The position numbers and the translations under genes are program-made. Shown piece after piece: positions 28,105 through 44,337 of a stretch of 64,000 bases of DNA (within the stretch, counting starts at the first letter, position 1; each line of letters starts with the position of its first letter). This DNA comes from Prauserella cavernicola (GTDB lineage: Bacteria; Actinomycetota; Actinomycetes; Mycobacteriales; Pseudonocardiaceae): positions 992,001-1,056,000 of the forward strand of contig NZ_JAENJH010000001.1 of the NCBI RefSeq assembly GCF_016595675.1, given 5' to 3'. Below the pieces are notes generated by a model. It saw nothing but the letters and a program-made list of their open reading frames with translations, had not been told where the DNA came from and did not search any database.

Positions 28105-29391
28105 TCACGCACCCGGCAGCACGAACACCAGGCACGTCGTGACAGGGGCCACCACGATGAGTGAGAAACCCCAGGCCAGCAGCTGCCGGAACACGCGGTC
28201 GCGTTGTGACTCCGGGGAGTTGGCGACCACGAGCGCGCCGGTCGACGACAACGGGCTGGCGTCCACCACGAGCGACGAGATGGCCAGCGCCGTGATCAGC
28301 GCCGTCGCGCTCAGCGTGCTGTCGCCGAGCAGCGGCACCGCCAGCGGAATGAGCGCGCCCAGCATCCCGATCGTCGAGGCGAAGGCCGAGCCGAGCGCCC
28401 CGATCCCGCAGATGATCAGCGCCGCCACGATCGGCACCCCGACGGCGGCGACTCCGCGGCCGAGATACTCGAGCGTGCCGAGCGACTGCAACAGCTCGAC
28501 GTAGGTCAGCGTGCCGCAGACCAGCAGCACCGTCGGCCACGCGACCTGCGGCACCGCGCGCCTGCCCGCCGCCGGACTGGCGATCGACAGGGCCACGGCC
28601 ACCGTCATGGCGAGCACGCCGATGTTCACCTCGAACGCGAGTGCCCCGACGGCGAGTACGACCAGCCCGGCCAGTGTCGCCAGCCGGTGCCCGTTCAACC
28701 GGCTCCCGGCTACGGCGGGAGCCGTGGTGGCGCCGGGCCCGGAGGTGCGCACCACCGCGGGCTCCCGAGCCGAGGTCCGCACACCGGCGAGCCGCGATCC
28801 TCCGAAGAGGACGAACCCCACGGCGCCGAGCAGCACGTTGAACACCGCCGACCCCGCGAACAGCAGGCCAGGGTCGATCGAAAGGCCGTTGCGCTCGACG
28901 ACGGCGTTGCTCAGGCTCCCGAGCACGCTGCTCGGCGCCAGCCCGCCCGCGGCGCCGCCGTTGACGACCATGAGTCCCATCAGCAACGGGTTGATGTCGT
29001 AGCGGCGCGCGAACTCCAGCGCCACCGGTGCGAGCACGGCGATCACGGCGACCAACGGGGCTCCCGCCATCGCCAGCAGCCCGGTGACCACGAACATCAC
29101 CCACGGGACGAGCACGAGCCGCCCGCGTACCAGCCGCACACCCGCTGACGTGAGCCACGTGATCGTGCCGTTGTCGCGGGCGATGGCGAACAGGTACGTG
29201 ACGCCGACCAGGGTGAGGAACAGCTCGGCGGGGAATCCGTCGCTGATCACCCGCTCCACCGGTACGCCGGCGACGAGCGAGCCGACCACGAACGCGGCGA
29301 CGAACGCCACGGCACCCATGTTGACATCGAGCAGTGTGGTGGTAGCGAAGACCACCAGCAGGCCGATCAGCGCGACGAGTTCGACGGGCAT
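28105..29391 (-). CDS. MatC-like dicarboxylate carrier (ion transporter superfamily)
   Basis: 428 aa, ATG start 3 nt after the stop of a small upstream ORF. Ten to twelve membrane segments; the N-terminus DVNMGAVAFVAAFVVGSLVAG is the MatC N-terminal domain of malonate/dicarboxylate carriers. VNGGAAGGLAPSSVLG and VDASPLSSTGALVVAN are the paired re-entrant motifs of the superfamily. It is divergent from nothing directly but shares a regulatory word upstream (29530-29540) with the gntR-suyAB region, so a C3-C4 acid or sulfonate is a reasonable substrate. Confidence 0.82.
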   Translation of the reverse strand: MPVELVALIGLLVVFATTTLLDVNMGAVAFVAAFVVGSLVAGVPVERVISDGFPAELFLTLVGVTYLFAIARDNGTITWLTSAGVRLVRGRLVLVPWVMFVVTGLLAMAGAPLVAVIAVLAPVALEFARRYDINPLLMGLMVVNGGAAGGLAPSSVLGSLSNAVVERNGLSIDPGLLFAGSAVFNVLLGAVGFVLFGGSRLAGVRTSAREPAVVRTSGPGATTAPAVAGSRLNGHRLATLAGLVVLAVGALAFEVNIGVLAMTVAVALSIASPAAGRRAVPQVAWPTVLLVCGTLTYVELLQSLGTLEYLGRGVAAVGVPIVAALIICGIGALGSAFASTIGMLGALIPLAVPLLGDSTLSATALITALAISSLVVDASPLSSTGALVVANSPESQRDRVFRQLLAWGFSLIVVAPVTTCLVFVLPGA

Positions 29392-29394
29392 CGC

Positions 29395-29508
29395 TCAGCC
29401 CTCCCCGCGCTCGGCCGCGCGCTCAATGGACTGTGGGGATCTCCGTCGCGCCGAGTTCGCGAACCTCTCTGCCGGTGCTTCTGCGGAACCTCGTCGTACC
29501 GCGGCCAT
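29395..29508 (-). CDS. Possible 37-aa leader ORF upstream of the MatC carrier
   Basis: An ATG at 29508 with GGGAGG 5 bp upstream starts a 37-residue Arg/Ala/Glu-rich reading frame whose TGA lies 3 nt before the MatC start (TGAGCGATG), so translation would be coupled. No membrane segment, no family recognised. It could be a small protein or a translation-coupling leader. The good ribosome site is the main support. Confidence 0.4.
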   Translation of the reverse strand: MAAVRRGSAEAPAERFANSARRRSPQSIERAAERGEG

Positions 29509-29529
29509 CCGATCCTCCCTCGTGGTAAG

Positions 29530-29540
29530 AGGTCGTACCA
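29530..29540 (-). promoter_or_regulatory. Predicted FadR-type GntR operator upstream of the MatC operon
   Basis: On the minus strand TGGTACGACCT, inside an 18-bp inverted arrangement (29523-29540, TGGTA-N8-TACCA). It differs by one base from the word at 30536-30546. It lies about 20 bp upstream of the small ORF. Confidence 0.5.
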
Positions 29541-29676
29541 CTGAGGTTGTACAGTGCGAGGTCGGCGGTGACAAGACTCAGCCAGCCCGCGCCACCGCCC
29601 ACGGGAGTGCCGACGTGCGCGGACCGCACGGAAAAAGAATCCGAAGTCCTTTGTGGATTGAGGAGCCCCGAGGCGG

Positions 29677-30423
29677 TCAGCCCTGTTCGGGCTCCGCCCG
29701 GCGCTGGTCCTCGTGCAGCCTGGCCATCGCCGCCTTGCGAGCACCGTTGATGTGGGTCTTCACGGCACGCCTGGCCGCGGCCGGATCTCCCCCGAGCACC
29801 GCGTCGAGGATGCGCCGGTGATCGTCCCTCGACCTCTCGAGCCTGCCCGGCACGCGCAGCGTGGTCTCCATACCGCGCGACAGGATCTCCTGAAGCACCG
29901 TGAGGGTCCGCGTCATGAACCGGTTGCCCGCCGCCTCGACGATGCGCATGTGGAACGCGGCGTCGAGCTCCTGCAGCGTGTTCCAGTCGACCGGGTCCTC
30001 GCGGGTCGCGGCGTCGAGCTGTTCGTAGGCCCGCAGCACCGCGGCGAGCTTGTCCTTGTCGCCGTTGCTCGCCGCCCACCCGGCCGCTGGCAGCTCCAGC
30101 ACCTCGCGCATGTCGAAGAGCTCAACGAGACTCATCTCCTCGGTGACCATCGCCTCGCGCAGAGTGCGAGTGGTCGCGGGGTCGGCCACGAACACACCGG
30201 AGCCGTGCCGCACCTCGACGTGACCCTGCGCCTTGAGTGAGCGCAGGGCCTCGCGCAGCGACGGCCTGCTCACCCCGAGCAACGCGGCCAGCTCGCGTTC
30301 GGGTGGCAGCCGGTCGCCGGGACGCAGCCGCTCACCGGCGATGACCTCGAGGATCTGGCCGGAGATCCGGTCCGACACCATTCCTCGTTCCAGCCGCGTC
30401 CACATCTGCGCGTCAGCACTCAC
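29677..30423 (-). CDS. FadR-type GntR transcriptional regulator
   Basis: 248 aa from the GTG at 30423, which has GGGAG at the right distance; the GTG two codons earlier does not. The winged helix-turn-helix is at about residues 15-75 (LPPERELAALLGVSRPSLREALRSLKAQGHVEV) and the helical FCD domain at about 90-230. It is divergent from the suyAB-like genes with two TGGTAAGACC words in between, so it is the probable local regulator of the locus and of the MatC carrier. Confidence 0.87.
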   Translation of the reverse strand: MSADAQMWTRLERGMVSDRISGQILEVIAGERLRPGDRLPPERELAALLGVSRPSLREALRSLKAQGHVEVRHGSGVFVADPATTRTLREAMVTEEMSLVELFDMREVLELPAAGWAASNGDKDKLAAVLRAYEQLDAATREDPVDWNTLQELDAAFHMRIVEAAGNRFMTRTLTVLQEILSRGMETTLRVPGRLERSRDDHRRILDAVLGGDPAAARRAVKTHINGARKAAMARLHEDQRRAEPEQG

Positions 30424-30446
30424 GAACACTCCCAGTCACTCGCCTT

Positions 30447-30457
30447 TGGTAAGACCA
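30447..30457. promoter_or_regulatory. Predicted GntR operator (TGGTAAGACCA)
   Basis: A perfect TGGT-N3-ACCA palindrome, the classic FadR-subfamily layout, 23 bp upstream of the gntR start. Part of a longer GGTAA-N6-TTACC arrangement. Confidence 0.65.
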
Positions 30458-30535
30458 CTTTACCTCTGTCTCGATCAGGACGCGACGCACCCCTTGCCCA
30501 CCGCCGATTCGCGGGCTACGGTCGTCCGCGTCCAG

Positions 30536-30546
30536 TGGTAAGACCT
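30536..30546. promoter_or_regulatory. Predicted GntR operator (TGGTAAGACCT)
   Basis: Identical to the site at 30447 for the first ten bases; lies 17 bp upstream of the suyA-like start, overlapping the expected promoter or leader. Confidence 0.6.
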
Positions 30547-30563
30547 CTAGCCAAGGGAGCGAC

Positions 30564-30872
30564 ATGGCGAAGGCAAGCGGACCTCCGGGCTATCTCGCCC
30601 ATCACGACGGAGACCTGGTGGCGGTCGCGGTGCGCGACCTGGAGCCCGGCCCCGTCGAGGGCGGATACCTGCGCGGACCGGAGAACGTGACCATCGAGTT
30701 GCTCGAAGCGGTCCCCCTCGGGCACAAACTGGCGCTGGTCGACATCACCGAGGGCCAGGACGTCATCGAGTACGGACAGCGGGTCGGCATCGCGACCGCA
30801 GACATCGCCAAGGGCGGCTACGTCCATGTGCACAACGTGAGGAGCGCGCGGTGGCAGAACAGCGTGGCCTGA
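30564..30872 (+). CDS. suyA: SuyA-like small subunit of (2R)-sulfolactate sulfo-lyase (UxaA/SAF domain)
   Basis: 102 aa, ATG start with AAGGGAG. A single SAF domain: LAHHDGDLVAVAVRDLEPG at the start, PLGHKLALVDITEGQDVIEYGQRVGIATADIAKGGYVHVHNVRSARW at the end. In altronate/galactarate dehydratases this domain is fused to the large one; the split form with a ~390-aa partner is that of SuyA. The HVHN motif is in the active site of the family. Overlaps suyB by 22 nt. Altronate-type or other sugar-acid dehydratase cannot be fully excluded. Confidence 0.78.
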   Translation: MAKASGPPGYLAHHDGDLVAVAVRDLEPGPVEGGYLRGPENVTIELLEAVPLGHKLALVDITEGQDVIEYGQRVGIATADIAKGGYVHVHNVRSARWQNSVA

Positions 30873-32014
30873 CCGGATTCCGCCGGGAGAACGGCGCGGT
30901 CGGCATCCGTAACCACACCATCATCCTTCCCGTCGACGACCTGTCGAACGCCGCGGCGGAGGCGGTCGCGGCCGTGGTGCCGGGCACCCTCGCGCTGCCG
31001 CACGCCTACGGGCGGCTGCAGTTCGGACCCGACCTCGACCTCACCTTCCGGACGCTGATCGGCACCGGATGCAATCCGAACGTCGCCTCCGTGGTGGTGA
31101 TCGGGATCGAGCCGAACTGGACCGAGAAGGTCGCCGACGGTATCGCCAAGACCGGTAAGAAGGTCCGTGCGTTCTCCATCGAGCGACACGGCGACCTGCG
31201 CACCGTCGAGGCCGCCGCGCGTGTGGCGGCGGAGTTTCTGCGCGACGACTCCGAGAAGCGGCGCGAAGCGGTGCGGCGCGACGAGGTCATGCTCTCGATC
31301 AAGTGCGGCGAGTCCGACACCACCAGCGGGCTTGGTTCGTGCCCGACCACGTCCGAGGCCGTCGACCGCTGGGTGGATGCGGGCGGCACCGTGCTGTTCG
31401 GCGAGACCAGCGAGCTCACCGGCGGCGAGCAGCTGATCGCCCAGCGCTGCGTCGACGAGTCGGTGCGCGCACGGTTCCAGGAGATCTACGACAACTACAT
31501 CGAGATGATCGAGCGCACCGGGGCCAACCTGCTCGGGTCGCAGCCGACGCAGGGCAACATCCGCGGCGGCCTCTCGACCATCGAGGAGAAGGCGATGGGC
31601 AACATCGCCAAGACCGGCAGCAAGCCGGTGGTCGGCGCGCTCGACTCCGCCGAGGCGCCCGCCTCCGGCCCCGGGTTGTACTTCATGGACACCTCCTCGG
31701 CCGCGGCGGAGTGCGTCACACTGATGGCCGCGGCGGGCGCGGTGGTCCACCTGTTCCCCACCGGGCAGGGCAACGTGATCGGCAATCCCATCGAGCCCGT
31801 GGTCAAGCTCAGCGCCAACCCGCTGACCACAGAGACGATGTCCGAGCACATCGACCTGGACTGCTCGGGGCTGCTGCGCCAGGAGTACGACCTCACCACG
31901 GCGGGTGACCAGCTGATGGAGGTCATCGACCGCACGGTCAACGGCAGGCTCACGTGCGCCGAGTCGCTCGGCCACCGCGAGTTCGTGCTCACCAGGCTCT
32001 ACCCCAGCGCCTGA
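30851..32014 (+). CDS. suyB: SuyB-like large subunit of (2R)-sulfolactate sulfo-lyase
   Basis: 387 aa, GTG start within suyA. The UxaA C-terminal family: GFRRENGAVGIRNHTIILPVDDLSNAAAEAV, GTLALPHAYGRLQFG, GTGCNPN, KCGESDTTSG and FPTGQGNVIGNPIEPVVKLSANP. From memory, these blocks follow proteobacterial SuyB closely, more than altronate dehydratase, which is fused and about 495 aa. With SuyA it would split (R)-sulfolactate into pyruvate and sulfite. The downstream dehydrogenases are those expected for sulfolactate. No sulfite oxidase or exporter is seen nearby, so sulfite must be handled elsewhere. Confidence 0.78.
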   Translation: MAEQRGLTGFRRENGAVGIRNHTIILPVDDLSNAAAEAVAAVVPGTLALPHAYGRLQFGPDLDLTFRTLIGTGCNPNVASVVVIGIEPNWTEKVADGIAKTGKKVRAFSIERHGDLRTVEAAARVAAEFLRDDSEKRREAVRRDEVMLSIKCGESDTTSGLGSCPTTSEAVDRWVDAGGTVLFGETSELTGGEQLIAQRCVDESVRARFQEIYDNYIEMIERTGANLLGSQPTQGNIRGGLSTIEEKAMGNIAKTGSKPVVGALDSAEAPASGPGLYFMDTSSAAAECVTLMAAAGAVVHLFPTGQGNVIGNPIEPVVKLSANPLTTETMSEHIDLDCSGLLRQEYDLTTAGDQLMEVIDRTVNGRLTCAESLGHREFVLTRLYPSA

Positions 32015-32079
32015 GAATCCCCGCGGTCGCCGGGCCCACCCGGCCCGGCGACCCGGAATCCGTCTCGAGAGGACAGACG

Positions 32080-33504
32080 ATGTCGCAGATGGCGACGACA
32101 CTCATCGCCGGTGACTGGCACCGGGCCGGCGAGCCGCGCGAGATCCGCAACCCCGTCGACGGCTCCGTGGTGGGCCACGTCGACTACGCGGGCGCCGAAC
32201 AGGCACGCGCGGCGGCGGACGCGGCGGCCACGGCGTTCGGTGCGTGGTCGCACACGCCCGCCCGCGCCCGCGCCGACGTGCTGCTGGGGGCCGCCGAGCT
32301 GATCTCGCAGCGGGCCGAGCGCATCGGCACGCTGCTGGCCGCCGAGGCGGGCAAGCGCGCCCCCGAGGGCGTCGGGGAGCTGCGCTTCTCCGCCGAGTAC
32401 TTCCGCTGGTTCGCCGAACAGTGCCGCCGCCCCAGCGGCGAGGTGCGCCCGCACGAGGCGCCAGGCCGCAGGCACCTCACCATCCGCAGACCCGCGGGTG
32501 TGGTCGCGAGCCTGACCCCGTGGAACTTCCCGTGCTCGATCCAGGCGCGCAAGCTGGCTCCCGCGCTGGCCGCGGGCTGCACCGTGGTGGCGCGGGTCTC
32601 GGAGAAGGCGCCGCTCGCCGCCACCGAACTGGTGCGCTGCCTCACCGACGCGGGCCTGCCGCCCGGCGCGGTCAACCTGGTACACGGTCCCGCCGCCGCG
32701 ATCACCGACGCCTACCTCGACCACCCCGCCGTGCGGGTCGTGTCGTTCACCGGCTCCACCGAGGTCGGCCGCTCGATCATGGCGAAGGCCTCCACGCGGG
32801 TCGTGCGGCCGCTGCTGGAACTCGGCGGCAACGCGCCCTTCATCGTCTTCGGTGACGCCGACCTCGACGCCGCGGTGGAGGGCGCAGTGCTCGCCAAGTT
32901 CCGCAACACGGGGCAGTCGTGCATCGGCGCCAACCGCTTCTACGTGCACACCGAGGTCGCGCAGGAGTTCACCAGCCGCTTCGCCGAGGCCGTCGACGCG
33001 ATGTCGATCGGCGACGGGCTCGCCGACCCCGTGCCGGATCTGGGTCCCTGCATCGACGACACGCGTGTGGCCGCGGTCGACCGCATGGTCGAGGAGGCGC
33101 TCGCCGCGGGAGCCAAGCGGGTGACGAAGGAGCGCGTGCCGCCGTCGGGTTCCTTCGCCGCGCCGGCGCTGCTGGTGGACGTGCCCCGCCACACCGCGCT
33201 CGCCCGCGACGAGGTCTTCGGCCCCGCGGCCGCGATCTTCACCTTCCGCGACGAGGACGAGGTGGTGGCCGAGGCCAACGCCACCGAGATGGGCCTTGCC
33301 GCCTACTGCTACACGCGCGACTCGTCCCGCACGTGGCGGATGGCCGAGCAGCTCGACGCCGGGATCCTCGGCATCAACAACGCGCTGCCCAGCGTCGCGT
33401 TCGCCCCGATGGGCGGCAGCAAGCAGTCGGGACTCGGCAGGGAGGGAGCCGAGCTGGGACTCGAAGAGTTCGAAGAGACCCGCTACATCTCGCTCGGGAT
33501 CTGA
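32080..33504 (+). CDS. NAD(P)-dependent aldehyde dehydrogenase (candidate sulfolactaldehyde dehydrogenase)
   Basis: 474 aa, ATG start with GAGAGGACAG. Catalytic residues of the superfamily are present: Asn149 (PWNF), Glu247 (LELGGN) and Cys281 (NTGQSCIGANR); FTGSTEVG is the nucleotide-binding turn. It belongs near succinate-semialdehyde dehydrogenases (GabD-like), the group that includes sulfolactaldehyde dehydrogenase of the sulfo-Entner-Doudoroff pathway. The usual KPSE cofactor motif reads ARVSE, so the conserved Lys that contacts the adenosine ribose is changed to Arg. In this operon it would oxidise sulfolactaldehyde to sulfolactate (inference). Confidence 0.82.
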   Translation: MSQMATTLIAGDWHRAGEPREIRNPVDGSVVGHVDYAGAEQARAAADAAATAFGAWSHTPARARADVLLGAAELISQRAERIGTLLAAEAGKRAPEGVGELRFSAEYFRWFAEQCRRPSGEVRPHEAPGRRHLTIRRPAGVVASLTPWNFPCSIQARKLAPALAAGCTVVARVSEKAPLAATELVRCLTDAGLPPGAVNLVHGPAAAITDAYLDHPAVRVVSFTGSTEVGRSIMAKASTRVVRPLLELGGNAPFIVFGDADLDAAVEGAVLAKFRNTGQSCIGANRFYVHTEVAQEFTSRFAEAVDAMSIGDGLADPVPDLGPCIDDTRVAAVDRMVEEALAAGAKRVTKERVPPSGSFAAPALLVDVPRHTALARDEVFGPAAAIFTFRDEDEVVAEANATEMGLAAYCYTRDSSRTWRMAEQLDAGILGINNALPSVAFAPMGGSKQSGLGREGAELGLEEFEETRYISLGI

Positions 33505-33563
33505 CCCGGGTACCTCCACCGTCTCCGGTGCCGTCGCCGCCACCGCACGAGAGGACCGCCGAC

Positions 33564-35033
33564 ATGGCAGAGCAGCCGGACACCCGGCCCGTCATCCGCT
33601 CACCCCAGGACGTCAACGACCTGATCAACTCGGGACGAGCGAAAGGAGGAAAGTCCGGCGCTATCACGTTCATCGCGCTCGGCGGCATCTTCATCGACGC
33701 CTACGACTTCTCCTCGATCGCGTTCGGACTCAAGGACATCACCGAGAGCTTCCAGCTCACGGCATTCCAGGAAGGTGCGGTCGCCGCCTCGATCATGATC
33801 GGGGCGCTGCTGGGCGCACTGGTCGGCGGTTACCTCGTCGACCGGCTCGGCCGCTACAAGCTGTTCATGGCCGACATGCTCTTCTTCGTGGTCGCCGCGA
33901 TCGCGTGCGCGGTGGCACCGAACTTCGAGACGCTCACCGGAGCCAGACTGCTGATGGGCATCGGCATCGGCATCGACTTCCCGGTGGCGCTCGCGTTCAT
34001 CGCGGAGTTCAACGCCCTGCGCGGCAAGGGAAGCAAGGTATCGCTGTGGCAGCCGATGTGGTATCTCGCCACCGGTTCGGCGTTCCTCGTGCTGCTGCCG
34101 CTGTACTTCCTCATCCCCGACGACGGGCACGAGCACCTGTGGCGCTGGGCCGTCGGCTTCGGGGCGGTGCCCGCGCTGGTCGTGATGCTGGTGCGGCACA
34201 AATACATGGACGAGTCGCCGAGCTGGGCCGCGAGCCAGGGCGACCTGCACCGGGCCGCGGGGATCCTGCACCGCTCCTACGGCATCGAGGTGCGCGTGGA
34301 GCAACCACCGGAGCAGACCGTGAAGGAACGCCGTGGCGCCGGCGACATCATCGCCGAGTTCGCCCGGTTGTTCAGCCCCCGCTACCGGGCCCGCACGATA
34401 CTGGCCGCGACGGTCAGTTTCTGCCAGTCGATCCAGTACTACGCGGTGGGGTTCGCGCTGCCGGTGATCATTTCCGGGTTCCTGCACCAGGACCGGCTCA
34501 CCTCGATTCTCGGCCCACTGGTGTTCAACCTCGTCTTCGGTGTGCTCGGCGGACTGCTGGGCGTGCGGCTGGCCAACCGGCTCGGCTCGTGGAAGCTCTC
34601 GGCCAGCGGGTTCGCGATCTGCCTTGCGGCGCTGACCGGGCTCGGCCTGCTCGGCTCGCCGGAGGGAACGTGGCCGCTCGCGCTGTCCGGACTGCTGCTC
34701 GGCGCGTTCGTCTTCTTCCACTCCTACGGGCCCGGCGCGCAGGGGATGACGATGGCGACGCTGAGCTATCCGACGTCGTTGCGCGGGGTCGGCGGCGGCT
34801 TCGGCCAGGCCGTGCTGCGCATCGGCTCGATGCTGTCGCTGCTGTGGTTCCCCACGCTCAGCGCGTCACTGGGCACCGGGGTGTACTTCGTGGTCGCTGT
34901 GGCGCCCGTGCTCGGGCTCATCGTGCTGGCGCTCATCCGGTGGGAGCCCGTTGGAGTCGACGTCGATGCCGAGGAAGCAGCCGACCAGGCCGCCGCTTCC
35001 ACGCAGAACCACTTGATCGGCAAGGAGAAGTGA
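33564..35033 (+). CDS. MFS transporter of the sulfolactate locus
   Basis: 489 aa, ATG start with GAGAGGA. The N-terminal soluble stretch (about 30 residues) is followed by ALGGIFIDAYDFSSIAFGLKDITESF and GGYLVDRLGRYKLFMAD, motifs of the sugar/organic-acid MFS branch; 12 segments. It lies between the aldehyde dehydrogenase and the reductase, so it is the likely importer of the sulfonate or its precursor. The stop shares one base with the next start. Confidence 0.85.
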   Translation: MAEQPDTRPVIRSPQDVNDLINSGRAKGGKSGAITFIALGGIFIDAYDFSSIAFGLKDITESFQLTAFQEGAVAASIMIGALLGALVGGYLVDRLGRYKLFMADMLFFVVAAIACAVAPNFETLTGARLLMGIGIGIDFPVALAFIAEFNALRGKGSKVSLWQPMWYLATGSAFLVLLPLYFLIPDDGHEHLWRWAVGFGAVPALVVMLVRHKYMDESPSWAASQGDLHRAAGILHRSYGIEVRVEQPPEQTVKERRGAGDIIAEFARLFSPRYRARTILAATVSFCQSIQYYAVGFALPVIISGFLHQDRLTSILGPLVFNLVFGVLGGLLGVRLANRLGSWKLSASGFAICLAALTGLGLLGSPEGTWPLALSGLLLGAFVFFHSYGPGAQGMTMATLSYPTSLRGVGGGFGQAVLRIGSMLSLLWFPTLSASLGTGVYFVVAVAPVLGLIVLALIRWEPVGVDVDAEEAADQAAASTQNHLIGKEK

Positions 35034-35920
35034 TGGTCAGCAAAATCGGTTTCATCGGCGCGGGAAACATGGGAGGCGCCGTCGCCCGCAGGCTCGCGGG
35101 CGGTGGTCACGACGTGCACGTGTACGACCTCTCCCCCGCCGCCGTGCAGTCGTGCGAGCAGGCCGGGGCGGTGGCCGCCGGATCGGCCTCGGCGGCGGTG
35201 CACGACGCCGACGTGGTGTTCACGAGCCTGCCGATGCCCGAGCACGTGCTCGCGACGTGGACCCGGCTCGCGCCCGAGCTGGCGGAAGGGGCGATCGCCG
35301 TCGACGTGTCCACGATCGATCCCGGCACCGTGGAGCTGGCGACCGCCGCCGTCGGCGAGCACGGCCACCCGTTCGTCACGTGCGCACTCGGCAAGACACC
35401 CGCCGCGGCGGAGCGGGGCGAGATCCCGTTGTTCGTCGGCGGTCCCGGCGACGCGGTGTCGGCGCTGCGGCCGCTGTTCGAGCGCATCGGCGAGGCCACC
35501 CACCGGTTCGAGAGCGCGGGCGCCGCCGCGATGTTCAAGCTGATCTCCAACCTGGTGGGCATGACCAACGTCGCGGTGCTGGCCGAGGGCTACGTGCTCG
35601 CCAGGGCCGCGGGGATCACGCCCGAGCAGTTCGGCGCCGCGCTCGCCGACACCGGGGCCGCCTCGTTCCAGTCGCAGGTGCGACTGCCGTGGCTGATGGC
35701 GGGCGACTACGAGGCCCGCTTCGGTGTGGAACTGGCCGCGAAGGACGTGCGGCTCGCTCTCGACGCCGGCGCACGGCAGGGCATCCCCTCTCCCGTTGCG
35801 GCGCAGGGGCTCGCGCAGCTGCTGTCGGCCGTCGCCCACGGCTACGGAGGGCAGGACGCGGTGGCCGTGGCGAAGGTGCTCGACCCGGACGGCAAGCTGC
35901 TGGGGACCACCGATGACTGA
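35033..35920 (+). CDS. Beta-hydroxyacid dehydrogenase, YihU (sulfolactaldehyde reductase)-like
   Basis: 295 aa, ATG start in TGATG with AAGGAG. NAD(H) motif GFIGAGNMGGAVARR at the start and catalytic Lys169 in AAAMFKLISNL. The substrate loop, usually DxPVSGG in 3-hydroxyisobutyrate and tartronate-semialdehyde enzymes, reads LGKTPAAAERGEIPLFVGG (about residues 119-137). This is the layout of E. coli YihU (GRTSANA), where the Arg helps bind the sulfonate; here Lys121 takes that place. This supports sulfolactaldehyde/dihydroxypropanesulfonate as substrate. Alternative: another acid semialdehyde reductase. Confidence 0.75.
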   Translation: MVSKIGFIGAGNMGGAVARRLAGGGHDVHVYDLSPAAVQSCEQAGAVAAGSASAAVHDADVVFTSLPMPEHVLATWTRLAPELAEGAIAVDVSTIDPGTVELATAAVGEHGHPFVTCALGKTPAAAERGEIPLFVGGPGDAVSALRPLFERIGEATHRFESAGAAAMFKLISNLVGMTNVAVLAEGYVLARAAGITPEQFGAALADTGAASFQSQVRLPWLMAGDYEARFGVELAAKDVRLALDAGARQGIPSPVAAQGLAQLLSAVAHGYGGQDAVAVAKVLDPDGKLLGTTDD

Positions 35921-36884
35921 GCGGATCGACATCCTGGTGAGCGAGGACGTCTGGGGCGCCGCGTTCGAACAGCTGACCACGCGCTACCAGGTGGTGCGCG
36001 AACCCGGGCTGTGGCAGGACCCCGAGCGGCTGGCCGGTCAGGTCCGGCGCAGCAGGGCGCTGGTGGTCCGCAACCGGACGCGGGTGGACCGGGCGCTGCT
36101 GACCGCGGGCGAGCGGCTGACGGTCGTCGCGAGGGCGGGTGTGGGCCTGGACAACATCGACCTGCCCGCCGCCGACGAGGCGGGCGTGGTGGTGACGGCT
36201 CCGTTGGGCGCCAACGCGGTCAGCGTGGCCGAACACACGCTCGGCCTCGCGCTGACGCTCGCGCGGGGCACCGTGCGGCTCGACGCCGACTGTCGCGCGG
36301 GCGGCTGGCGGCGCGCGCCCGGCCGTGAGCTGCGTGGCGGCACCTGGGGACTGCTCGGCTGCGGCGCCACCGCGCGGGCCTGCGGGGAGCTGGCCGCCGC
36401 TCTGGGCATGCGGGTGCTCGCCCACGACCCGTACCTCGACCCGGCGCACCCGGCACTGGCCACCGCGCGGATCGAACTGGCGCCGCTGGAGCGGGTGGTG
36501 GCCGAGGCCGACGTGCTCTCGTGCCACCTGCCCGCCACCGCGGACACCACGGGACTGGTGAACGCGGACCTGCTGGCGCGGATGCGGCCCTCGGCGCTGT
36601 TCGTCAACGCCGGGCGCGGCGAAGTGGTGGACGAGGACGCGCTCGCCGACGCGCTGGAGGCCGGAACCCTCGGCGGCGCGGCGCTCGACGTGCGCGCGAG
36701 CGAACCACCGAGGCCCGGCAGGCTGGAGAAACTGGACAACGTGGTGCTCACCCCGCACATAGCGGGTATCACGGCGCAGAGCCAGGCGCTGATCGCCCGC
36801 ACCCTCGCCGACGACCTCGACGCGGTGCTCAGCGGTGGGCGGGCGAGTTCCTCGGTGGGCACGGCGAAGGAGGCACGGTCGTGA
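35913..36884 (+). CDS. D-2-hydroxyacid dehydrogenase, SlcC-like ((S)-sulfolactate dehydrogenase candidate)
   Basis: 323 aa, ATG start overlapping the reductase by 8 nt. Phosphoglycerate-dehydrogenase family without the C-terminal ACT domain: nucleotide motif WGLLGCGATARACGE, catalytic Arg235 (NAGRGEVVDE), Glu264 (RASEPP) and His282 (TPHIAG). The third Gly of GxGxxG is Ala. Known (S)-sulfolactate dehydrogenase SlcC belongs to this family and works together with ComC to convert (S)- to (R)-sulfolactate via sulfopyruvate. Context supports that role. Confidence 0.75.
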   Translation: MTERIDILVSEDVWGAAFEQLTTRYQVVREPGLWQDPERLAGQVRRSRALVVRNRTRVDRALLTAGERLTVVARAGVGLDNIDLPAADEAGVVVTAPLGANAVSVAEHTLGLALTLARGTVRLDADCRAGGWRRAPGRELRGGTWGLLGCGATARACGELAAALGMRVLAHDPYLDPAHPALATARIELAPLERVVAEADVLSCHLPATADTTGLVNADLLARMRPSALFVNAGRGEVVDEDALADALEAGTLGGAALDVRASEPPRPGRLEKLDNVVLTPHIAGITAQSQALIARTLADDLDAVLSGGRASSSVGTAKEARS

Positions 36885-37897
36885 CGGAGACGGTGGAGTC
36901 GGCGGAGACACTCGCGAGCGCATTGCTCACCGCGGCGGGCATGGAACCGGCCAGGGCGCGCACGAGCGCGCGCTGCATCGTGATGGCCGACGTGTGGGGC
37001 ATCGGCTCACACGGGCTGATGCGGCTGCCCTACTACCTGCAGCGGATGGTGGCGGGCGGCTACCCGGCCGACGCGGAGCTGCGGGTCGTCGACGACACCG
37101 GCCCGGTCGTGTCGGCCACCGGTGGCGGCGGGCTCGGGCACTGGCAGCTCTGGCAGTCGGCCGAGCTCGCCGCACAACGCTGCGGGCAATACGGGATCGG
37201 TGCCGTGTCGGTGGCCGACTCGGGGCACTGCGGCGCGCTCGGTCTCTATACGGTGCCGGGACTGCGGCACGGCCTGCTGACACTCGCGTTCTCCAACGGG
37301 CCCGCCGTGATGCCGCCGTGGGGCGGCGCGAAACCACTGCTGTCCACCTCGCCGCTGGCCGCGGGGATCCCGACCCGGCCACGTCCTGCGATCGTCGACA
37401 TGGCCACCAGCGCGGTGGCGCGCGGCAAGATCGCCGCGCACGCCCGTAGCGGAACCCGCCTGCCCGAGGGCTGGGCGCTCGCGGCCGACGGCACGCCGAC
37501 GATCGATCCGCAGGAGGCGCTGTACGGAATGCTGGCACCGCTGGGCGGGGCGAAGGGCTTCGCGCTCGCGCTGCTGGTGGAGTCGATCGCGGGCGGGCTG
37601 GCCGGGCCCAACCTCGCGGCGGACGTGCCGGACATGTTCACCGAGTCGGACGCACCGAGCCCGCAACGCATCGGGCACGTGCTGCTCACCCTCGACCCGG
37701 CACGCTTCACCGGCGACGGCGACGCGGCGGCCAGGCGTCTCGACCGGCTGGCGGCCTCGGTCGAGGACGCGGGCGGCAGGCTCCCCGGCCGCGACCGGGT
37801 GCTGCCCGACGACGTCGACCCTGGCGTCGCGCTGGCGATCGACGACAAGACCGTGCGGGAGCTGCGGGAGTGGGCGGACCGGCTGGGCGTGGGCTGA
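36881..37897 (+). CDS. Malate/L-lactate dehydrogenase family, ComC-like ((R)-sulfolactate dehydrogenase candidate)
   Basis: 338 aa, GTG start in a GTGA overlap. Type-2 malate/lactate dehydrogenase fold (unlike classical Rossmann): SHGLMRLPYYLQRM (43-56), catalytic His116 in VADSGHCGALGLY, and DMATSAVARGKI. ComC and other sulfolactate dehydrogenases belong here. It ends the operon; its stop codon lies in a palindrome shared with the convergent SDR gene. Paired with the SlcC-like gene it would complete the two-dehydrogenase racemisation described for sulfolactate degraders. Confidence 0.77.
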   Translation: MTETVESAETLASALLTAAGMEPARARTSARCIVMADVWGIGSHGLMRLPYYLQRMVAGGYPADAELRVVDDTGPVVSATGGGGLGHWQLWQSAELAAQRCGQYGIGAVSVADSGHCGALGLYTVPGLRHGLLTLAFSNGPAVMPPWGGAKPLLSTSPLAAGIPTRPRPAIVDMATSAVARGKIAAHARSGTRLPEGWALAADGTPTIDPQEALYGMLAPLGGAKGFALALLVESIAGGLAGPNLAADVPDMFTESDAPSPQRIGHVLLTLDPARFTGDGDAAARRLDRLAASVEDAGGRLPGRDRVLPDDVDPGVALAIDDKTVRELREWADRLGVG

Positions 37898-39632: not shown

Positions 39633-39657
39633 GAGGCCCCGGCTCCACCGGGGCCTC
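39633..39657 (-). terminator. Hairpin at the end of the TRAP operon
   Basis: Perfect 10-bp stem GAGGCCCCGG (39633-39642) with CCGGGGCCTC (39648-39657) and a 5-nt loop. It begins in the last codon of the SDR and includes two bases of its stop. Likely intrinsic terminator for the minus-strand operon, possibly also for tetR. Confidence 0.65.
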
Positions 39658-40429
39658 AGCCGATCGCGGCGCCGCCACAGACCTTCAGCACCTGGCCGGT
39701 GACGAACGCCGCGCCCGGCGAGGCCAGGTAGGCCACGGCCGCGCCGACCTCCTCCGGCTCGCCCATCCGCTGGATCACCTGGTCGTCGAGCGCGTAGGTG
39801 ACCGACGTGGTCAGCGGGGTGGCGATCGGACCGGGAGCCACCGAGTTGCACGTGATCCCGTACGGGCCGACCTCCTTGGCCAGCCACTTGGTCAGCGCGA
39901 TGACGCCGCCCTTGGACGCGGCGTAGGCGGGGCCCGACCGGCCAGCGCCCTCGCCGCCCGAGCGGGGGCCGCCCATGATCCCGGAGATCGAGCTGATGTT
40001 GATGATCCTGCCCTCGCCCCGGTCCTTCATGTGCGGATGCACGGCGGCGCGGCTGTAGAGGAACATGCCGTGCAGGTTGGTGTCGAGATCGCGGTGCCAC
40101 TCGCCCTCGGTCAGTGCGTCCAGCCCGGCGCGACTCGCCGTGCCCGCGTTGTTCACCAGCACGTCGATCTTGCCGAACTCGGCGACGAGCTCGTCCACCG
40201 AGCGCCGGACCTCGTCCTCGTCGCGTACGTCGACCTTGCGGTAGGCGAAGCGCTGCGCCGGGAACTCCTCTCGCAGCTCGGCCACCGGGTCGACGTCGTC
40301 GGCGAGGTCCACCACCAGCACGTCGGCGCCCTGGCCCGCGAGGACCCTCGCGGTGGCCAGTCCGATACCCCTGGCGCCTCCGGTGACGAGTGCGACCTGT
40401 CCGGCGAGGTCGAACGGGTTCACGGCCAT
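39656..40429 (-). CDS. SDR-family oxidoreductase (FabG-like)
   Basis: 257 aa, ATG start. Classical SDR: TGGARGIGLATA (Rossmann turn), NNAG, catalytic Ser in SSISG, and YAASK. Last gene of the TRAP operon (27 bp after dctM). It likely oxidises an alcohol of the imported acid. A 12-residue Gly-rich insertion (GGPRSGGEGAGRSG) between the Ser and Tyr sites is longer than usual. Confidence 0.85.
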   Translation of the reverse strand: MAVNPFDLAGQVALVTGGARGIGLATARVLAGQGADVLVVDLADDVDPVAELREEFPAQRFAYRKVDVRDEDEVRRSVDELVAEFGKIDVLVNNAGTASRAGLDALTEGEWHRDLDTNLHGMFLYSRAAVHPHMKDRGEGRIINISSISGIMGGPRSGGEGAGRSGPAYAASKGGVIALTKWLAKEVGPYGITCNSVAPGPIATPLTTSVTYALDDQVIQRMGEPEEVGAAVAYLASPGAAFVTGQVLKVCGGAAIG

Positions 40430-40456
40430 CTTCTCCCCTCCCTGGAATGGAACACG

Positions 40457-41797
40457 CTAGAAACCGAGCAGATCGGGCAGCCAGTTGGACAGTGCGGGCA
40501 CGTAGGACACGAGCAGCACCACCACGAGCCCCGCGACGAAGAACGGCCGGATGCCCTTGACCACCTCGACGAGCGAGATGCGCGCGATCCCGGCGGCCAC
40601 GAACAGGTTCACGCCCACGGGCGGTGTCACCAGTCCCAGCGCCAGGTTCACGACCATCAGCACGCCGATGGTGGTCACGTCGACGCCGACCTCGAGCAGG
40701 ACCGGCGCGATGATCGGGATGAACAGGTACAGCGCCGACACCGCGTCGATGAACGCGCCCACCACGAGCAGCAGGATGACCGCCAGCAGGATGATGAGGT
40801 ACTTGTTGTCGGTCAGCCCGAGCAGTGCGTCGGACACGCCCGCCGCGATGTCGTTGACGGTCACCACGTAGGCGAACACCGAGGCCGCACCGACGATGAG
40901 CATCACCACGGCCGACTGCGCCGCCGCCGTCGTGAAGATCCGGTACAGCTGCGCGGGCTTGATCTCGCGGTAGAACAGCATCCCGACGAGCAGCGCGTAC
41001 GTGGCGGCGACCACCGCCGACTCGGTGGGCGTGACGATCCCGCCGTAGATTCCGCCGAGGATGATCACCGGCAGCAGCAGCCCGGGAAGCGCCTTGCCGA
41101 CCGCGCGGACGAAGCTTTCCTTCTGGGGTCCATCTCCGCCGGTGACCGCGGGCGCCTGCGCGGCGCCGGGACCGCCCGAGGTGGCCATGGCGGGCGCCTT
41201 CCTCGGCAGGAACAGGCACGCGATCACCAGTGCGACGGCCAGCATGATGCCCGGCACGACGCCCGCCACGAACAACCGGACGATCGAGACGCCCGAGAAG
41301 TCGCTGACGACCACGGCGAAGATGATGAACGCGATGCTCGGCGGCACGATGATGCCCATCGAGCCCGCGGTGGCCATGAGCGACGACGCGTGCCGCGCGG
41401 AGTAGCCCTGGCGGATCAGCGCCGGGATCAGGATGGAGCCGATCGCGGCGACCGTCGCGGGCCCGGAGCCGGAGATCGCGGAGAAGAAGAACGCCGCCAC
41501 GATCACCACGATCGCCAGGCCGTGCTTGCGCTGCCCCACACACGCGTGGGCGAAGTCGACGAGCCTGCGGGAGATGCCCGCGTACTCCATGATCACGCCC
41601 GCGAGGATGAAGAACGGGATCGCCAGCAGGGTCTCCGACGACACCGACGAGACGAACACGCTCGGCACCAGCGACAGCTCACCGAGCCCGCCCATCACCA
41701 CCAACGAGCACACCGCGGACACGCCGAGCGCGAACGCCACCGGCACGCCCAGCATCAGCAGGACGAGAAACGCTCCGAAGAGAACTACCCCGATCAC
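40457..41797 (-). CDS. dctM: TRAP transporter large permease (DctM)
   Basis: 446 aa, GTG start overlapping dctQ by 4 nt. Eleven to twelve membrane segments with DctM signatures: IPFFILAGVIMEYAGISRRLVDFAHACVGQRKHGLA, FFSAISGSGPATVAAIGSILIPAL, and NLALGLVTPPVGVNLFVAAGIA. A cytoplasmic Gly/Ala/Pro linker near the middle (about residue 215-230) is longer than usual. Works with DctQ and DctP for sodium-driven uptake of an organic acid. Confidence 0.92.
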   Translation of the reverse strand: MIGVVLFGAFLVLLMLGVPVAFALGVSAVCSLVVMGGLGELSLVPSVFVSSVSSETLLAIPFFILAGVIMEYAGISRRLVDFAHACVGQRKHGLAIVVIVAAFFFSAISGSGPATVAAIGSILIPALIRQGYSARHASSLMATAGSMGIIVPPSIAFIIFAVVVSDFSGVSIVRLFVAGVVPGIMLAVALVIACLFLPRKAPAMATSGGPGAAQAPAVTGGDGPQKESFVRAVGKALPGLLLPVIILGGIYGGIVTPTESAVVAATYALLVGMLFYREIKPAQLYRIFTTAAAQSAVVMLIVGAASVFAYVVTVNDIAAGVSDALLGLTDNKYLIILLAVILLLVVGAFIDAVSALYLFIPIIAPVLLEVGVDVTTIGVLMVVNLALGLVTPPVGVNLFVAAGIARISLVEVVKGIRPFFVAGLVVVLLVSYVPALSNWLPDLLGF

Positions 41798-42303
41798 CGG
41801 CCGTCCTCCTCGTTGTCGTCGCTGATCGCGGCGTCGGCGGTCGTCGTGCGGAACCCGGCCCTGCCAGCCTGGATCGTGCGGTAGGCGCCGAGCAGCGCCC
41901 CGACCGGCAGCGCGATCGTGAACAGCCACTGCGGCACGCCGATGGACGGTGTCGCCCTGCCTCGCTCCGCCTGCTGCAGGGCCAGTTCGAGCCCGAAGAC
42001 CAGCAGCACGGCGAGGAACACGAGGATCGACAGCGTGATGAGCACGGTCATGGTGGCGCGCACGGCGCCGCGGGCGCGTTCGTGCAAGGCGCTGAAGCCC
42101 AGGTGCGCGCCCTCTCGCAGCCCGATCACCGCGCCCATCATGAGCATCCACACCGCGAGGTTCACGGTGAGCTCGGAGGTGAAGGCGAGCGAGGCGTTGA
42201 GGAAGTAGCGGGACAGGACGTTGACGAAGGCCACGAGGGCCACGGCGGCGAACGGAATCGCGGCCAGCAGGTTCTCGACGGTGGCGAGGCGACGGTCGAA
42301 CAC
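41794..42303 (-). CDS. dctQ: TRAP transporter small permease (DctQ)
   Basis: 169 aa, GTG start two bases after the dctP stop. Four membrane segments in the DctQ pattern, including VNVLSRYFLNASLAFTSELTVNLAVWMLMMGAVIGLREGAHLGF. The C-terminus is acidic. Partner of DctM and DctP. Confidence 0.9.
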   Translation of the reverse strand: MFDRRLATVENLLAAIPFAAVALVAFVNVLSRYFLNASLAFTSELTVNLAVWMLMMGAVIGLREGAHLGFSALHERARGAVRATMTVLITLSILVFLAVLLVFGLELALQQAERGRATPSIGVPQWLFTIALPVGALLGAYRTIQAGRAGFRTTTADAAISDDNEEDGR

Positions 42304-42305
42304 GC

Positions 42306-43313
42306 TCAGCTCCCCGGGTTCACGGCCGAGGTCAGGGTCTCGCCCCAGACCGGCTCGTACTCGTCGTAGAGCGGCTGCATCGCCGTCCGGAAGGCGTTCA
42401 CCTGCTCGTCGGTGAGCCGGGTGACGTCCATGAGCCCGGCGTGCCGGTCGATCTCGGTCTGTTCGAGGTCGCGGCTTGCCTGGACCTGGAAGTCGTTGGC
42501 CTCCTCGGCGGCGTCGAGCACGATCCGCTGGTCGGCCTCACCGAGCGAGTCGAACAGCTCCTGGTTCATGCCGAGCACCAGCGGGTCGTAGACGTAGTTC
42601 CAGACCGTGAGGTACTCCTGCACCTCGGCCAGGCCGGACGACGCGATCACGTCCATCGGGTTCTCCTGGCCCTCGATGGTCCCCTGCTGCAGCGAGGTGA
42701 AGACCTCCGAGAAGTTCATCGTGGTCGGGTTGGCGCCCATCCCGCGGTAGATGTCGGTGAACAGCCCGATGCCGGGGATCCTGATCTTGATGCCGTCGAG
42801 GTCGTCCGGCGTGCGGACGGGTCGGACGTTGTTGGAGACCTGGCGGAACCCGCTCTCGCCGAAGCCGAGCATCTTCACGCCGTACTCCGCGCACAGATCC
42901 TCGTAGGCCTCGCGCGCACCGCTCTCGATGGCGCGGTCGGCGTCCTCGTAGTCCTGGTACAGGAACGGGGCGTTGATGGCACCGAACCGGGGGTCGATGC
43001 CCGCGTAGATGATCGTGGAGTTGTAGGAGAAGTCCTTGCTCCCGCTCATCAGCTGCTCGACACCCGCGGCCGGGTCGCCCGCCGAGAGCTGCTCGCTGGT
43101 GAACACCTTCAGTTGCATCCGGCCGTCCGACTCGCGTTCGAGCGCGTCGGCGAACCGCTGGGAAGCCTGGTACCACGTGGACGACTCACCGGTCGTGACC
43201 GTCATGTTCCAGGTGTGGACCTCATCGCCGGGCACCGCGGCCACCGGCCCACATCCGCTCAGTGCCAGGCAGGCCAGCACGGCGACGCCGCGCAGCCGGC
43301 GCTTCGACATCAT
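42306..43313 (-). CDS. dctP: TRAP transporter substrate-binding lipoprotein (DctP)
   Basis: 335 aa, ATG at 43313 with GGAG 8 bp upstream. The N-terminal signal ends in the lipobox LSGC (Cys at about residue 21), so it is membrane-anchored rather than free periplasmic, as expected in a monoderm. The DctP core is clear: EQLMSGSKDFSYNSTIIYAG, the conserved Arg in SGFRQVSNNVRPVRTPDDLDGIKIRIPG, and SLQQGTIEGQENPMDVI. Ligand unknown, likely a carboxylate. First gene of the operon, downstream of the GGTCC operator. Confidence 0.9.
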   Translation of the reverse strand: MMSKRRLRGVAVLACLALSGCGPVAAVPGDEVHTWNMTVTTGESSTWYQASQRFADALERESDGRMQLKVFTSEQLSAGDPAAGVEQLMSGSKDFSYNSTIIYAGIDPRFGAINAPFLYQDYEDADRAIESGAREAYEDLCAEYGVKMLGFGESGFRQVSNNVRPVRTPDDLDGIKIRIPGIGLFTDIYRGMGANPTTMNFSEVFTSLQQGTIEGQENPMDVIASSGLAEVQEYLTVWNYVYDPLVLGMNQELFDSLGEADQRIVLDAAEEANDFQVQASRDLEQTEIDRHAGLMDVTRLTDEQVNAFRTAMQPLYDEYEPVWGETLTSAVNPGS

Positions 43314-43400
43314 TGTCCGTTCTCCTCGTCCGCTCCGATGGGAGGCCCACTGATGGTGGGAGGAGCCGGTCACCGAAGTCAATGCCGCTTCGCGATCTCT

Positions 43401-43417
43401 GGTCCACATTATGGACC
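43401..43417. promoter_or_regulatory. Predicted IclR operator 1 (GGTCCACATTATGGACC)
   Basis: Perfect 6-bp arms GGTCCA/TGGACC around CATTA, between dctP and iclR. A second copy lies at 43511-43527. Position suits repression of the TRAP operon. Confidence 0.65.
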
Positions 43418-43455
43418 GTTGCGAGGTCGTCGGTTCTCTGCTCATCATGGTTCTC

Positions 43456-44337
43456 ATGAGCGCCGATGCCGAGCCGCGACCGTTGCGAGAACGCGGCAAC
43501 CTCGCTCGACGGTCCGCATCATGGACCATCGCGCACGCCACGGAGACGGGCGCCGAGCCGGCGGGCGCGCAGAGCATCCAGCGGGCGCTCGTGCTGCTGA
43601 ACCTCGTGGCCGTGCTGGCGCGGGACCGGCCGGGCGGGGTGTCGCTGTCCGAGCTGACCCGGGTCAGCGAGCGACCGAAGGCGAGCGTGCGGCGGGTGCT
43701 GCTGGCACTCGTGCAGGCCGGCTACGTCGAACAGGATCCCGAGACCTCGCGCTACCGCCTCGGCCTGCAGGCGGCCGTGCTCGGTGAGCTCGCGAGCCAG
43801 GGCGCCGACCGGCTCGGCGCGGTCAGCACCGACAGCCTCATCCGACTGTCCGATGTGTCCTCGGACACCGCGTTCCTCACCGTGCGGCACGGCAGCTACG
43901 CGGTGTGCGCGCGCAGGCAGGAGGGACCGGGCCCGATTCGCAACTACGCGCTCGCCGTGGGCGACCGTCACCCGCTCGGCGTGGGTGCGGGCAGCCTGGC
44001 GCTGCTGAGCGCGCTACCCGACGACGAGGTCGCCGCGGTGCTCTCCGCCACGGCGGCCGCCCGCGCGCAGTACCCGCGCTTCGACGACGAGACGCTGCAC
44101 CGTCTGGTGCGGCGCTCGCGCAAGGCGGGCTACGCGCTCAACGACGGCCTGTTCATCGCGGGCTCGTGGGCCGTGGGCGTCGTGGTCCGCGACGCCGACG
44201 ACCGACCCGTGGCCGCGCTCAGTGTCGCGACCATCGCAGAACGCCTGGGCAGACAGCGCCGGGAGGAACTCGTCGAGGTCCTGCAGCGCGAAGCCGAGAC
44301 CATGCACACCGCACTCACCCGGAGGACCCAGCCATGA
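43456..44337 (+). CDS. IclR-family transcriptional regulator
   Basis: 293 aa from the ATG at 43456; ATGs at 43411 and 43447 are alternatives and none has a Shine-Dalgarno site. The helix-turn-helix starts with QSIQRALVLLNLVAVLARDRPGGVSLSELTRVSERPKASVRRVLLALVQAGYVEQD, followed by the effector domain (about 110-285). Between the start and the HTH the gene contains the second operator copy, so the true start or an internal promoter is unclear. It is translationally coupled to the thiolase-like gene by ATGA and divergent from the TRAP operon. Confidence 0.83.
   Translation: MSADAEPRPLRERGNLARRSASWTIAHATETGAEPAGAQSIQRALVLLNLVAVLARDRPGGVSLSELTRVSERPKASVRRVLLALVQAGYVEQDPETSRYRLGLQAAVLGELASQGADRLGAVSTDSLIRLSDVSSDTAFLTVRHGSYAVCARRQEGPGPIRNYALAVGDRHPLGVGAGSLALLSALPDDEVAAVLSATAAARAQYPRFDDETLHRLVRRSRKAGYALNDGLFIAGSWAVGVVVRDADDRPVAALSVATIAERLGRQRREELVEVLQREAETMHTALTRRTQP
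43511..43527. promoter_or_regulatory. Predicted IclR operator 2, inside the iclR reading frame
   Basis: GGTCCGCATCATGGACC, 15 of 17 bases as operator 1, 110 bp away. It lies in codons 19-24 of the annotated gene. Either the gene starts later than it appears or the site acts as a downstream roadblock. Confidence 0.55.

Follow-up and report, generated by a model that had tools for sequence, protein, structure and literature searches.

The breakdown of sulfolipid from plants and algae yields dihydroxypropanesulfonate (DHPS) and sulfolactate as major products, and the cycling of sulfur depends on which organisms mineralise them. According to the accessible text of two reports, DHPS use based on SuyAB, the (R)-sulfolactate sulfo-lyase, has been described in proteobacteria and desulfobacteria, and the route that begins with the dehydrogenase DhpA has been shown only in an anaerobe (PMC6278857, PMC11382572). 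Here we analyse a stretch of 64,000 nucleotides from the actinomycete Prauserella cavernicola (the window; positions 992001–1056000 of contig NZ_JAENJH010000001.1, our C11, in a 7.2-Mb genome). In it, seven genes for SuyAB-like subunits, an aldehyde dehydrogenase (ALDH), an MFS carrier, a DhpA-like dehydrogenase and SlcC- and ComC-like dehydrogenases stand opposite the gene of a FadR-type GntR regulator. Judged from sequence comparison, this locus very probably degrades DHPS and sulfolactate to pyruvate and sulfite under that one regulator.

In Desulfovibrio sp. DF1, as in the scheme we propose, a COG2084 dehydrogenase converts DHPS to sulfolactaldehyde (SLA), a GabD-type enzyme yields sulfolactate, and SuyAB releases pyruvate and sulfite (PMC6278857). 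That organism grows anaerobically and converts sulfite to H2S, its locus tags place dhpA and slaB apart from suyAB with an ABC transporter by dhpA, and the accessible text of the report names neither SlcC nor ComC, whereas the window holds a single operon that includes SlcC- and ComC-like genes and an MFS carrier. The hpsRNOUP-suyAB genes of Cupriavidus pinatubonensis likewise form one cluster with an MFS carrier, for a DHPS catabolism that ends in SuyAB, but HpsN, HpsO and HpsP are used there and the cluster, as far as it is described in the available text, contains no DhpA or separate SlaB (PMC11382572). Paracoccus wurundjeri and Chromohalobacter, the latter cited in the same report, share with the window a pair of dehydrogenases for which inversion of sulfolactate ahead of SuyAB is proposed (PMC12421959). 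SlcC, ComC and SuyAB of P. wurundjeri were proposed from proteomics and homology; its feed is sulfofucose or sulfolactate, the accessible portion of the report names no DhpA, and its own SLA dehydrogenase is given as not known (PMC12421959). Finally, the actinobacterial DHPS clusters of Li et al. (2023) place an SLA dehydrogenase near a PF03446 enzyme, as in the window; the term SuyAB does not appear in the main text as available, which describes no regulon, and some overlap with the window operon is possible (PMC10599462).

The original prediction, made from the window's letters alone, took this gene combination to be unfamiliar as one operon. A literature search, with subscription papers mostly outside its scope, likewise found no description of DhpA, SlaB, SlcC, ComC and SuyAB in one operon or of a GntR regulon for them; the combination is, however, less novel than supposed, since components of it were already published as DhpA-SlaB-SuyAB in DF1, as SlcC/ComC/SuyAB in P. 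wurundjeri and as the actinobacterial DHPS clusters. The reactions and enzyme families are already known; what is new is the one-operon arrangement and the shared operator.

Gene organisation and proposed pathway

The seven genes occupy 30564–37897 on the + strand, opposite the divergent gene of the FadR-type regulator (29677–30429, − strand; Pfam GntR and FCD), and all frames are open. Every gene that the original prediction had named is present in this divergent arrangement; its starting point at 29395 takes in the gap behind the GntR gene, and a MatC-type permease gene (28105–29391, −) lies just beyond. Pfam returns the expected family for every operon gene except suyA. The first two genes, suyA (30564–30872, +) and suyB (30851–32014, +; GD_AH_second and GD_AH_C), would encode the small SAF-type and the catalytic subunit of (R)-sulfolactate sulfo-lyase. 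They are followed by an ALDH of the succinate-semialdehyde dehydrogenase type, the proposed SLA dehydrogenase (SlaB-like; 32080–33504, +; PF00171), the MFS carrier, a proposed DHPS importer (33564–35033, +; Sugar_tr and MFS_1), and a beta-hydroxyacid dehydrogenase, the proposed DhpA-like DHPS dehydrogenase (35033–35920, +; PF03446/PF14833). The last two genes encode a D-2-hydroxyacid dehydrogenase, the proposed (S)-sulfolactate dehydrogenase SlcC (35913–36884, +; PF02826/PF00389), and an Ldh2-family dehydrogenase, the proposed (R)-sulfolactate dehydrogenase ComC (36881–37897, +; PF02615).

Genes overlap at four of the six junctions (suyA/suyB by 22 bases, MFS/DhpA-like by 1, DhpA-like/slcC by 8 and slcC/comC by 4) and the remaining two are gaps of 65 and 59 bases, so a single transcript is likely. 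The order is not due to chance, because the same seven genes stand in the same order, with a divergent GntR gene, in Rhodococcus koreensis R85 (on a plasmid), Pseudonocardia kunmingensis and two genomes of the same genus (L125 and L126; L and G numbers are our handles for loci and genomes).

We propose that the MFS carrier imports DHPS and that the DhpA-like enzyme, as its clade suggests, would oxidise it with NAD+ to SLA, which the ALDH would convert to sulfolactate, at least in the S form. Based on family and context, the SlcC- and ComC-like enzymes would then carry (S)-sulfolactate to the R form via sulfopyruvate, and SuyAB would split (R)-sulfolactate into pyruvate and sulfite. The GntR protein, bound at two GGTAAGACC sites, would act as a repressor of the operon and of its own gene until released by a pathway sulfonate.

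A shared predicted operator

The operator is the strongest new evidence. The window contains two copies of GGTAAGACC, compared with 0.10 expected, and both lie in the gap between the GntR gene and suyA and are conserved in relatives: predicted site 1 (30448–30456, +) about 19 bases before the GntR start, and predicted site 2 (30537–30545, +) directly upstream of suyA. A sigma-70 and terminator scan of the same gap gave nothing. The pattern GGTAAGACCNCT occurs twice in the organism's whole genome, both times between the GntR gene and suyA. A whole-genome search of 11 of the 16 SuyB-positive genomes of the host family (all but G040, G056, G081, G147 and G268) gave 29 matches to GGTAAGACCNCT and 5 to the reversed pattern. 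Of the 29 matches, 21 are located no more than 10 kb from suyB, one precedes an MFS-DhpA pair far from suyAB (G018) and one an MFS paralogue (G115); six are unexplained, two of which mark the same place in two sister genomes. The site resembles FadR-family operators, and 14 of the 15 host-family loci that we fetched have a GntR homologue no more than 10 kb from SuyB.

The 9-base core also stands before parts of the pathway that are arranged differently elsewhere. It precedes slcC-comC in Amycolatopsis taiwanensis (L007), ALDH-MFS-DhpA in G095 and G132 (L134, L136), and MFS-DhpA in G115, G018 and G056 (L137, L198, L199). Transporter genes are preceded by it as well: a Na_sulph_symp gene/TauE pair in G095, G031, G115 and G132 (L134–L137), an SSF permease gene followed by TauE in A. 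taiwanensis and G233 (L130), and, in P. kunmingensis (L008), the MatC- and TauE-type genes between which it is located. Pfam names of these operator-linked genes were tested on L134, L007, L008, L009 and L026, and the others were assigned by similarity. By linking separated modules in several relatives, the operator supports the predicted route from DHPS or SLA to pyruvate and sulfite, and a regulator with a defined predicted operator can locate scattered pathway genes.

The beta-hydroxyacid dehydrogenase

Whether the pathway begins with DHPS depends on the beta-hydroxyacid dehydrogenase, which had been called a YihU-like reductase. If it were one, the operon could serve sulfolactate and SLA only, with DHPS as an overflow product. 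Its Pfam family is common with YihU-type enzymes, the YihU model is among its NCBIfam matches, and several relatives carry SuyAB-SlcC-ComC with no DhpA-like gene, so a stand-alone sulfolactate core exists. The enzyme itself, however, separates from YihU. It is 27% identical to YihU (25–29% for its five desulfobacterial clade members) and 41–43% identical to desulfobacterial COG2084-type enzymes near SuyAB, and by sequence its closest solved relative is 9k2j, at 214 bits versus 93 bits for YihU. A tree of 23 proteins unites the window enzyme with 9k2j and with 13 further enzymes of SuyAB loci (eight actinobacterial and five of Desulfovibrionales or Desulfobulbaceae) at a support of 100/100; YihU, GarR and six paralogues from the organism's own genome stand outside this clade. 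(Omitted from this tree were the window's own copy, L115, the partial L122, and the tblastn fragment from L087, for which full E. coli GarR was used.) At positions Arg123, Asn174 and Ser178 of YihU, which we take to be sulfonate contacts, all 14 SuyAB-locus enzymes and 9k2j have Lys, Ser and Gly. The NCBIfam YihU model PRK15461 scores the window enzyme at 115.7 bits against a cut-off of 348, and two desulfobacterial relatives, at 130.5 and 151.1 bits, also fall below it.

The tree thus rules out a YihU identity, and because the enzyme falls in the DhpA-type clade, DHPS oxidation is expected rather than DHPS production. The nearest described activity is that of DhpA of Desulfovibrio DF1, a COG2084 enzyme that is itself 27% identical to YihU and, in the accessible account, oxidises DHPS with NAD+ (PMC6278857); the window enzyme is probably a dehydrogenase of this type. 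Its gene also travels with the MFS carrier, the two adjoining in all 12 actinobacterial loci (the window, L001, L008, L125, L126, L132, L134, L136, L137 and L198–L200), and in G018 and G056 the pair stands under the same operator core, unlinked to SuyAB; in a thirteenth case, Rhodococcus jostii RHA1, the MFS match is truncated. We therefore consider an operon built around a reductase unlikely and retain DHPS as a proposed substrate. The Lys/Ser/Gly signature may separate DHPS-oxidising enzymes from SLA reductases, which family names alone do not. As for 9k2j, we found no paper carrying the code 9K2J, and its title gives only 3-hydroxyisobutyrate dehydrogenase. The structure model of the window enzyme is middling (mean pLDDT, the predicted local distance difference test, 71.5).

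A sulfolactate core with entry modules

Among the 15 fetched host-family loci, an SlcC-like gene lies within 10 kb of SuyB in all 15 and a ComC-like gene in 14 (one contig ends before it), with an ALDH in seven and the MFS-DhpA pair in six. SlcC-like and ComC-like homologues occur within the same distance in 35 and 39, respectively, of 80 SuyB loci. GabD converts (S)-SLA to (S)-sulfolactate and SuyAB takes the R form, according to the text available (PMC11382572), a difference that would account for the retention of the SlcC/ComC pair together with SuyAB; GabD-2 of Ruegeria pomeroyi is described, in the accessible part of its report, as acting on both enantiomers (PMC11131964). The window ALDH falls in a clade of 12 SuyAB-locus enzymes with support 100/99, 11 from the host family or other Actinobacteria and one from Chloroflexota (duplicates L006, L095, L096 and L101–L103 left out), and its best paralogue in the same genome is 43% identical.

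Some loci carry the ALDH without the MFS-DhpA pair (L013, L020, L131, L133), and others the pair with no ALDH nearby (G018, G056, G115). Across 297 host-family genomes, SuyB is found in 16 (E up to 1e-100), the DhpA-like gene in 10 (E up to 1e-40) and both in nine (Fisher p = 2.6e-12, uncorrected for kinship). The tenth genome with a DhpA-like gene, G269, carries ALDH-MFS-DhpA-SlcC-ComC on a contig that ends 175 bases before the ALDH match. In a 394-genome sample of the class, only this organism has a DhpA-like gene that passes a threshold of 1e-70, and the DhpA module is therefore rare. This distribution is consistent with a sulfolactate core whose entry modules are exchangeable.

The same separability of core and block in evolution could be read otherwise, with a sulfolactate/sulfopyruvate core fed mainly by another sulfonate, for example cysteate, and an ALDH-MFS-DhpA block that serves a different hydroxyacid. 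The ALDH has no discriminating sulfonate signature and 9k2j is known to us by its title only, which leaves room for such a division. On the other hand, in several genomes the 9-base operator core, a rare sequence, precedes core and block alike, and nine of the ten genomes with a DhpA-like gene also have SuyB. We regard the division as decidedly improbable and continue to place both parts in one pathway from DHPS.

Two variant arrangements were observed. On pRHL1 of R. jostii RHA1 (L201:8748-24385) the locus is rearranged: YeiH/LysR genes adjoin GntR-SuyAB, the MFS match is truncated, as noted above, and the ALDH is displaced, in two pieces, near a TauE-type gene. In L011, L012, L014, L016–L019 and L030, SuyAB-SlcC-ComC is followed by a YeiH-type exporter gene, with no DhpA or ALDH match; several of these actinobacteria are, as we presume from their names, freshwater lineages.

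Identity of SuyAB

The assignment of SuyAB as an (R)-sulfolactate sulfo-lyase is the strongest of the proposed pathway. Although SuyA has no Pfam match at 1e-5, it matches galactarate dehydratase and the altronate hydrolase structure 3k3s over their N-terminal parts; its gene, for a small SAF subunit, adjoins that of a UxaA-type large subunit, as in a split enzyme. Among the best 60 of 314 matching plasmid records, the first 13 are 57.6–84% identical to SuyB and the next 39.5%, the most that any non-SuyB record among these 60 reaches. Hit H3, from C. pinatubonensis HN-2, is 62.5% identical and comes from a locus that holds hpsN and hpsO. As far as the available text shows, hpsN and hpsO beside suyB are the arrangement of the DHPS cluster of C. 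pinatubonensis JMP134 (PMC11382572).

Phylogeny, the check suggested with the original prediction, points the same way: SuyB does not cluster with sugar-acid dehydratases, a grouping that would have refuted the prediction. In a tree of 108 rows (without the duplicates or partial copies L006, L030, L095–L109, L127 and L129), the window protein groups with 98 other SuyB rows, and a branch with support 100 in the Shimodaira–Hasegawa-like approximate likelihood ratio test (SH-aLRT) separates these 99 from nine other UxaA-family rows, including E. coli UxaA and GarD. At E up to 1e-3, SuyB is the only protein of its family found in the organism's genome. The predicted SuyB model matches galactarate dehydratase 6u7l (template modelling score 0.76–0.77 by query length), as expected for the superfamily, and the structure models add little beyond the fold.

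That SuyAB is instead a split sugar-acid dehydratase, in an operon for an aldonic or aldaric acid, is barely credible: the superfamily is the same, and the sole NCBIfam match (TIGR03248) and the nearest solved structure are both galactarate dehydratase, but that match reaches 141 bits against a cut-off of 731, the SuyB tree rules the reading out, at two fetched split UxaA-type loci the accompanying genes are instead those of a dihydrodipicolinate-synthase type and of alpha-ketoglutaric semialdehyde dehydrogenase, and the operator is common to sulfite-exporter-type genes in relatives.

A split UxaA-type pair of another kind was seen in Variovorax sp. PBL-E5 (L089:3714-9268). It is 37.8% identical to SuyB, sits on a long branch adjoining the SuyB clade, and is accompanied by a hydroxyacid dehydrogenase, an Ldh-family enzyme and a tricarboxylate-type binding protein; it is perhaps a lyase for another substrate.

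Disposal of sulfite

Exporter-type genes near SuyB provide an independent link to sulfite and so support the predicted pathway. A gene of exporter or sulfite-oxidase type lies within 10 kb of SuyB in 19 of the 80 SuyB loci, many of which are incomplete, and in 23 with a second, TauE, marker set. TauE-type genes are present in nine of the 15 host-family loci and, among the 80, in L007, L008, L009, L026 and L031 (the Pfam check covered five loci). A YeiH-type exporter gene follows comC in eight of the 80, all actinobacterial, and in G095, G132, G115, G056 and R. jostii RHA1 either suyB or the GntR gene has a YeiH/LysR pair next to it. In the P. cavernicola genome, on other contigs or far away, there are five PF00174 genes as well as a YeiH/LysR pair; this pair and the one PF00174 gene of SorA type (219 bits, cut-off 600) are candidates for sulfite disposal.

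A modular regulon and the evidence against it

On balance, we lean towards a joint reading in which some Actinobacteria have a modular regulon for C3 sulfonates governed by a single GntR repressor: SuyAB-SlcC-ComC would form its core, and an SLA dehydrogenase and the MFS-DhpA pair would be additions to it. Actinomycetes would then mineralise DHPS by the DhpA route, the racemase pair would serve (S)-sulfolactate, and DhpA would form a family of its own, marked by Lys/Ser/Gly as opposed to the Arg/Asn/Ser of YihU. The locus offers cultured actinomycetes a specific, testable DHPS route.

Several observations weigh against the proposed pathway and its regulon. The exact core is absent from eight of 27 scanned sequences (L010, L014, L015, L020, L029, L131, L132 and L133), among them L132 despite its DhpA-like gene, and in L011–L013 it does not precede suyA; it may be that different sites are recognised by other variants of GntR. 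The SuyB tree was made by a quick method, with SH-aLRT values, no bootstrap and long outgroup branches, and its anchors, the Cupriavidus, Paracoccus and Desulfovibrio relatives of tested proteins, lie in the sister half and not beside the window protein, so that the function of SuyB is carried across one split. The non-SuyB Variovorax locus likewise holds hydroxyacid and Ldh-family dehydrogenases. The best NCBIfam model for the ComC-like enzyme is L-sulfolactate dehydrogenase, at 188 bits with a cut-off of 500, and that for the SlcC-like enzyme is phosphoglycerate dehydrogenase, at 242 with a cut-off of 454. Of 16 ALDHs near SuyB, four do not belong to the clade of the window enzyme, and one of these four, from Desulfovibrio sp. 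MES5, groups with E. coli GabD; the MFS-DhpA genomes G018, G056 and G115 show no such ALDH in the stretch. Arg171 and Arg289 of RlGabD are proposed, in the part of the report available, to bind the sulfonate (PMC10599462), and the pair is present in the window ALDH but equally in E. coli GabD and two own-genome paralogues. Lastly, TauE, YeiH/sulfate-exporter and SorA markers found no match in the window, in agreement with the earlier remark that no sulfite oxidase or exporter is visible nearby, yet relatives have a TauE-type gene in the proportion given above; the relatives' TauE, tried as a candidate in the P. cavernicola genome, finds a best match of only 26 bits.

Neighbouring genes

Beyond comC, a short-chain dehydrogenase/reductase (SDR) gene and TRAP-type transporter genes, the latter named by eye, adjoin the operon at 39656–43577. 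We considered these as HpsO with DHPS uptake and rejected the idea: the SDR is 35% identical to HpsO, no operator core is near, and other genes follow comC in the sister locus L125. There (L125:16113-19938), a LacI-type regulator, a HisD-family enzyme and a metabolite/H+ symporter are encoded, and the HisD-family match recurs in L126. The HisD-family genes of L125 and L126 are 44–46% identical to HpsN, and the motif of the L125 protein, GRYPL, differs from the motifs of both HpsN and HisD as stated in the accessible text of PMC11382572. An HpsN route in the sister genomes was rejected since GRYPL lacks His126, the mark of HpsN according to that text (PMC11382572). The HisD-family protein is possibly a dehydrogenase. 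HpsN was not found in the P. cavernicola genome, which has one HisD-family match, at 38%.

On the other side, the MatC-type permease (Pfam MatC_N 4.6e-47, and CitMHS) may be an accessory importer of C3 acids or sulfonates; it is found near the operon in the two same-genus genomes (84–85% identical) and in P. kunmingensis (64%). The gap between this gene and the GntR gene (29392–29676) still holds 23 codons of a former DctA-type symporter gene (29476–29544, −), recognised by a tblastn match of 23 residues at 83% identity. The gene is 460 amino acids long in one sister genome (L125:6386-7768), with a 92% match in the other (L126), and was apparently lost recently in this lineage.

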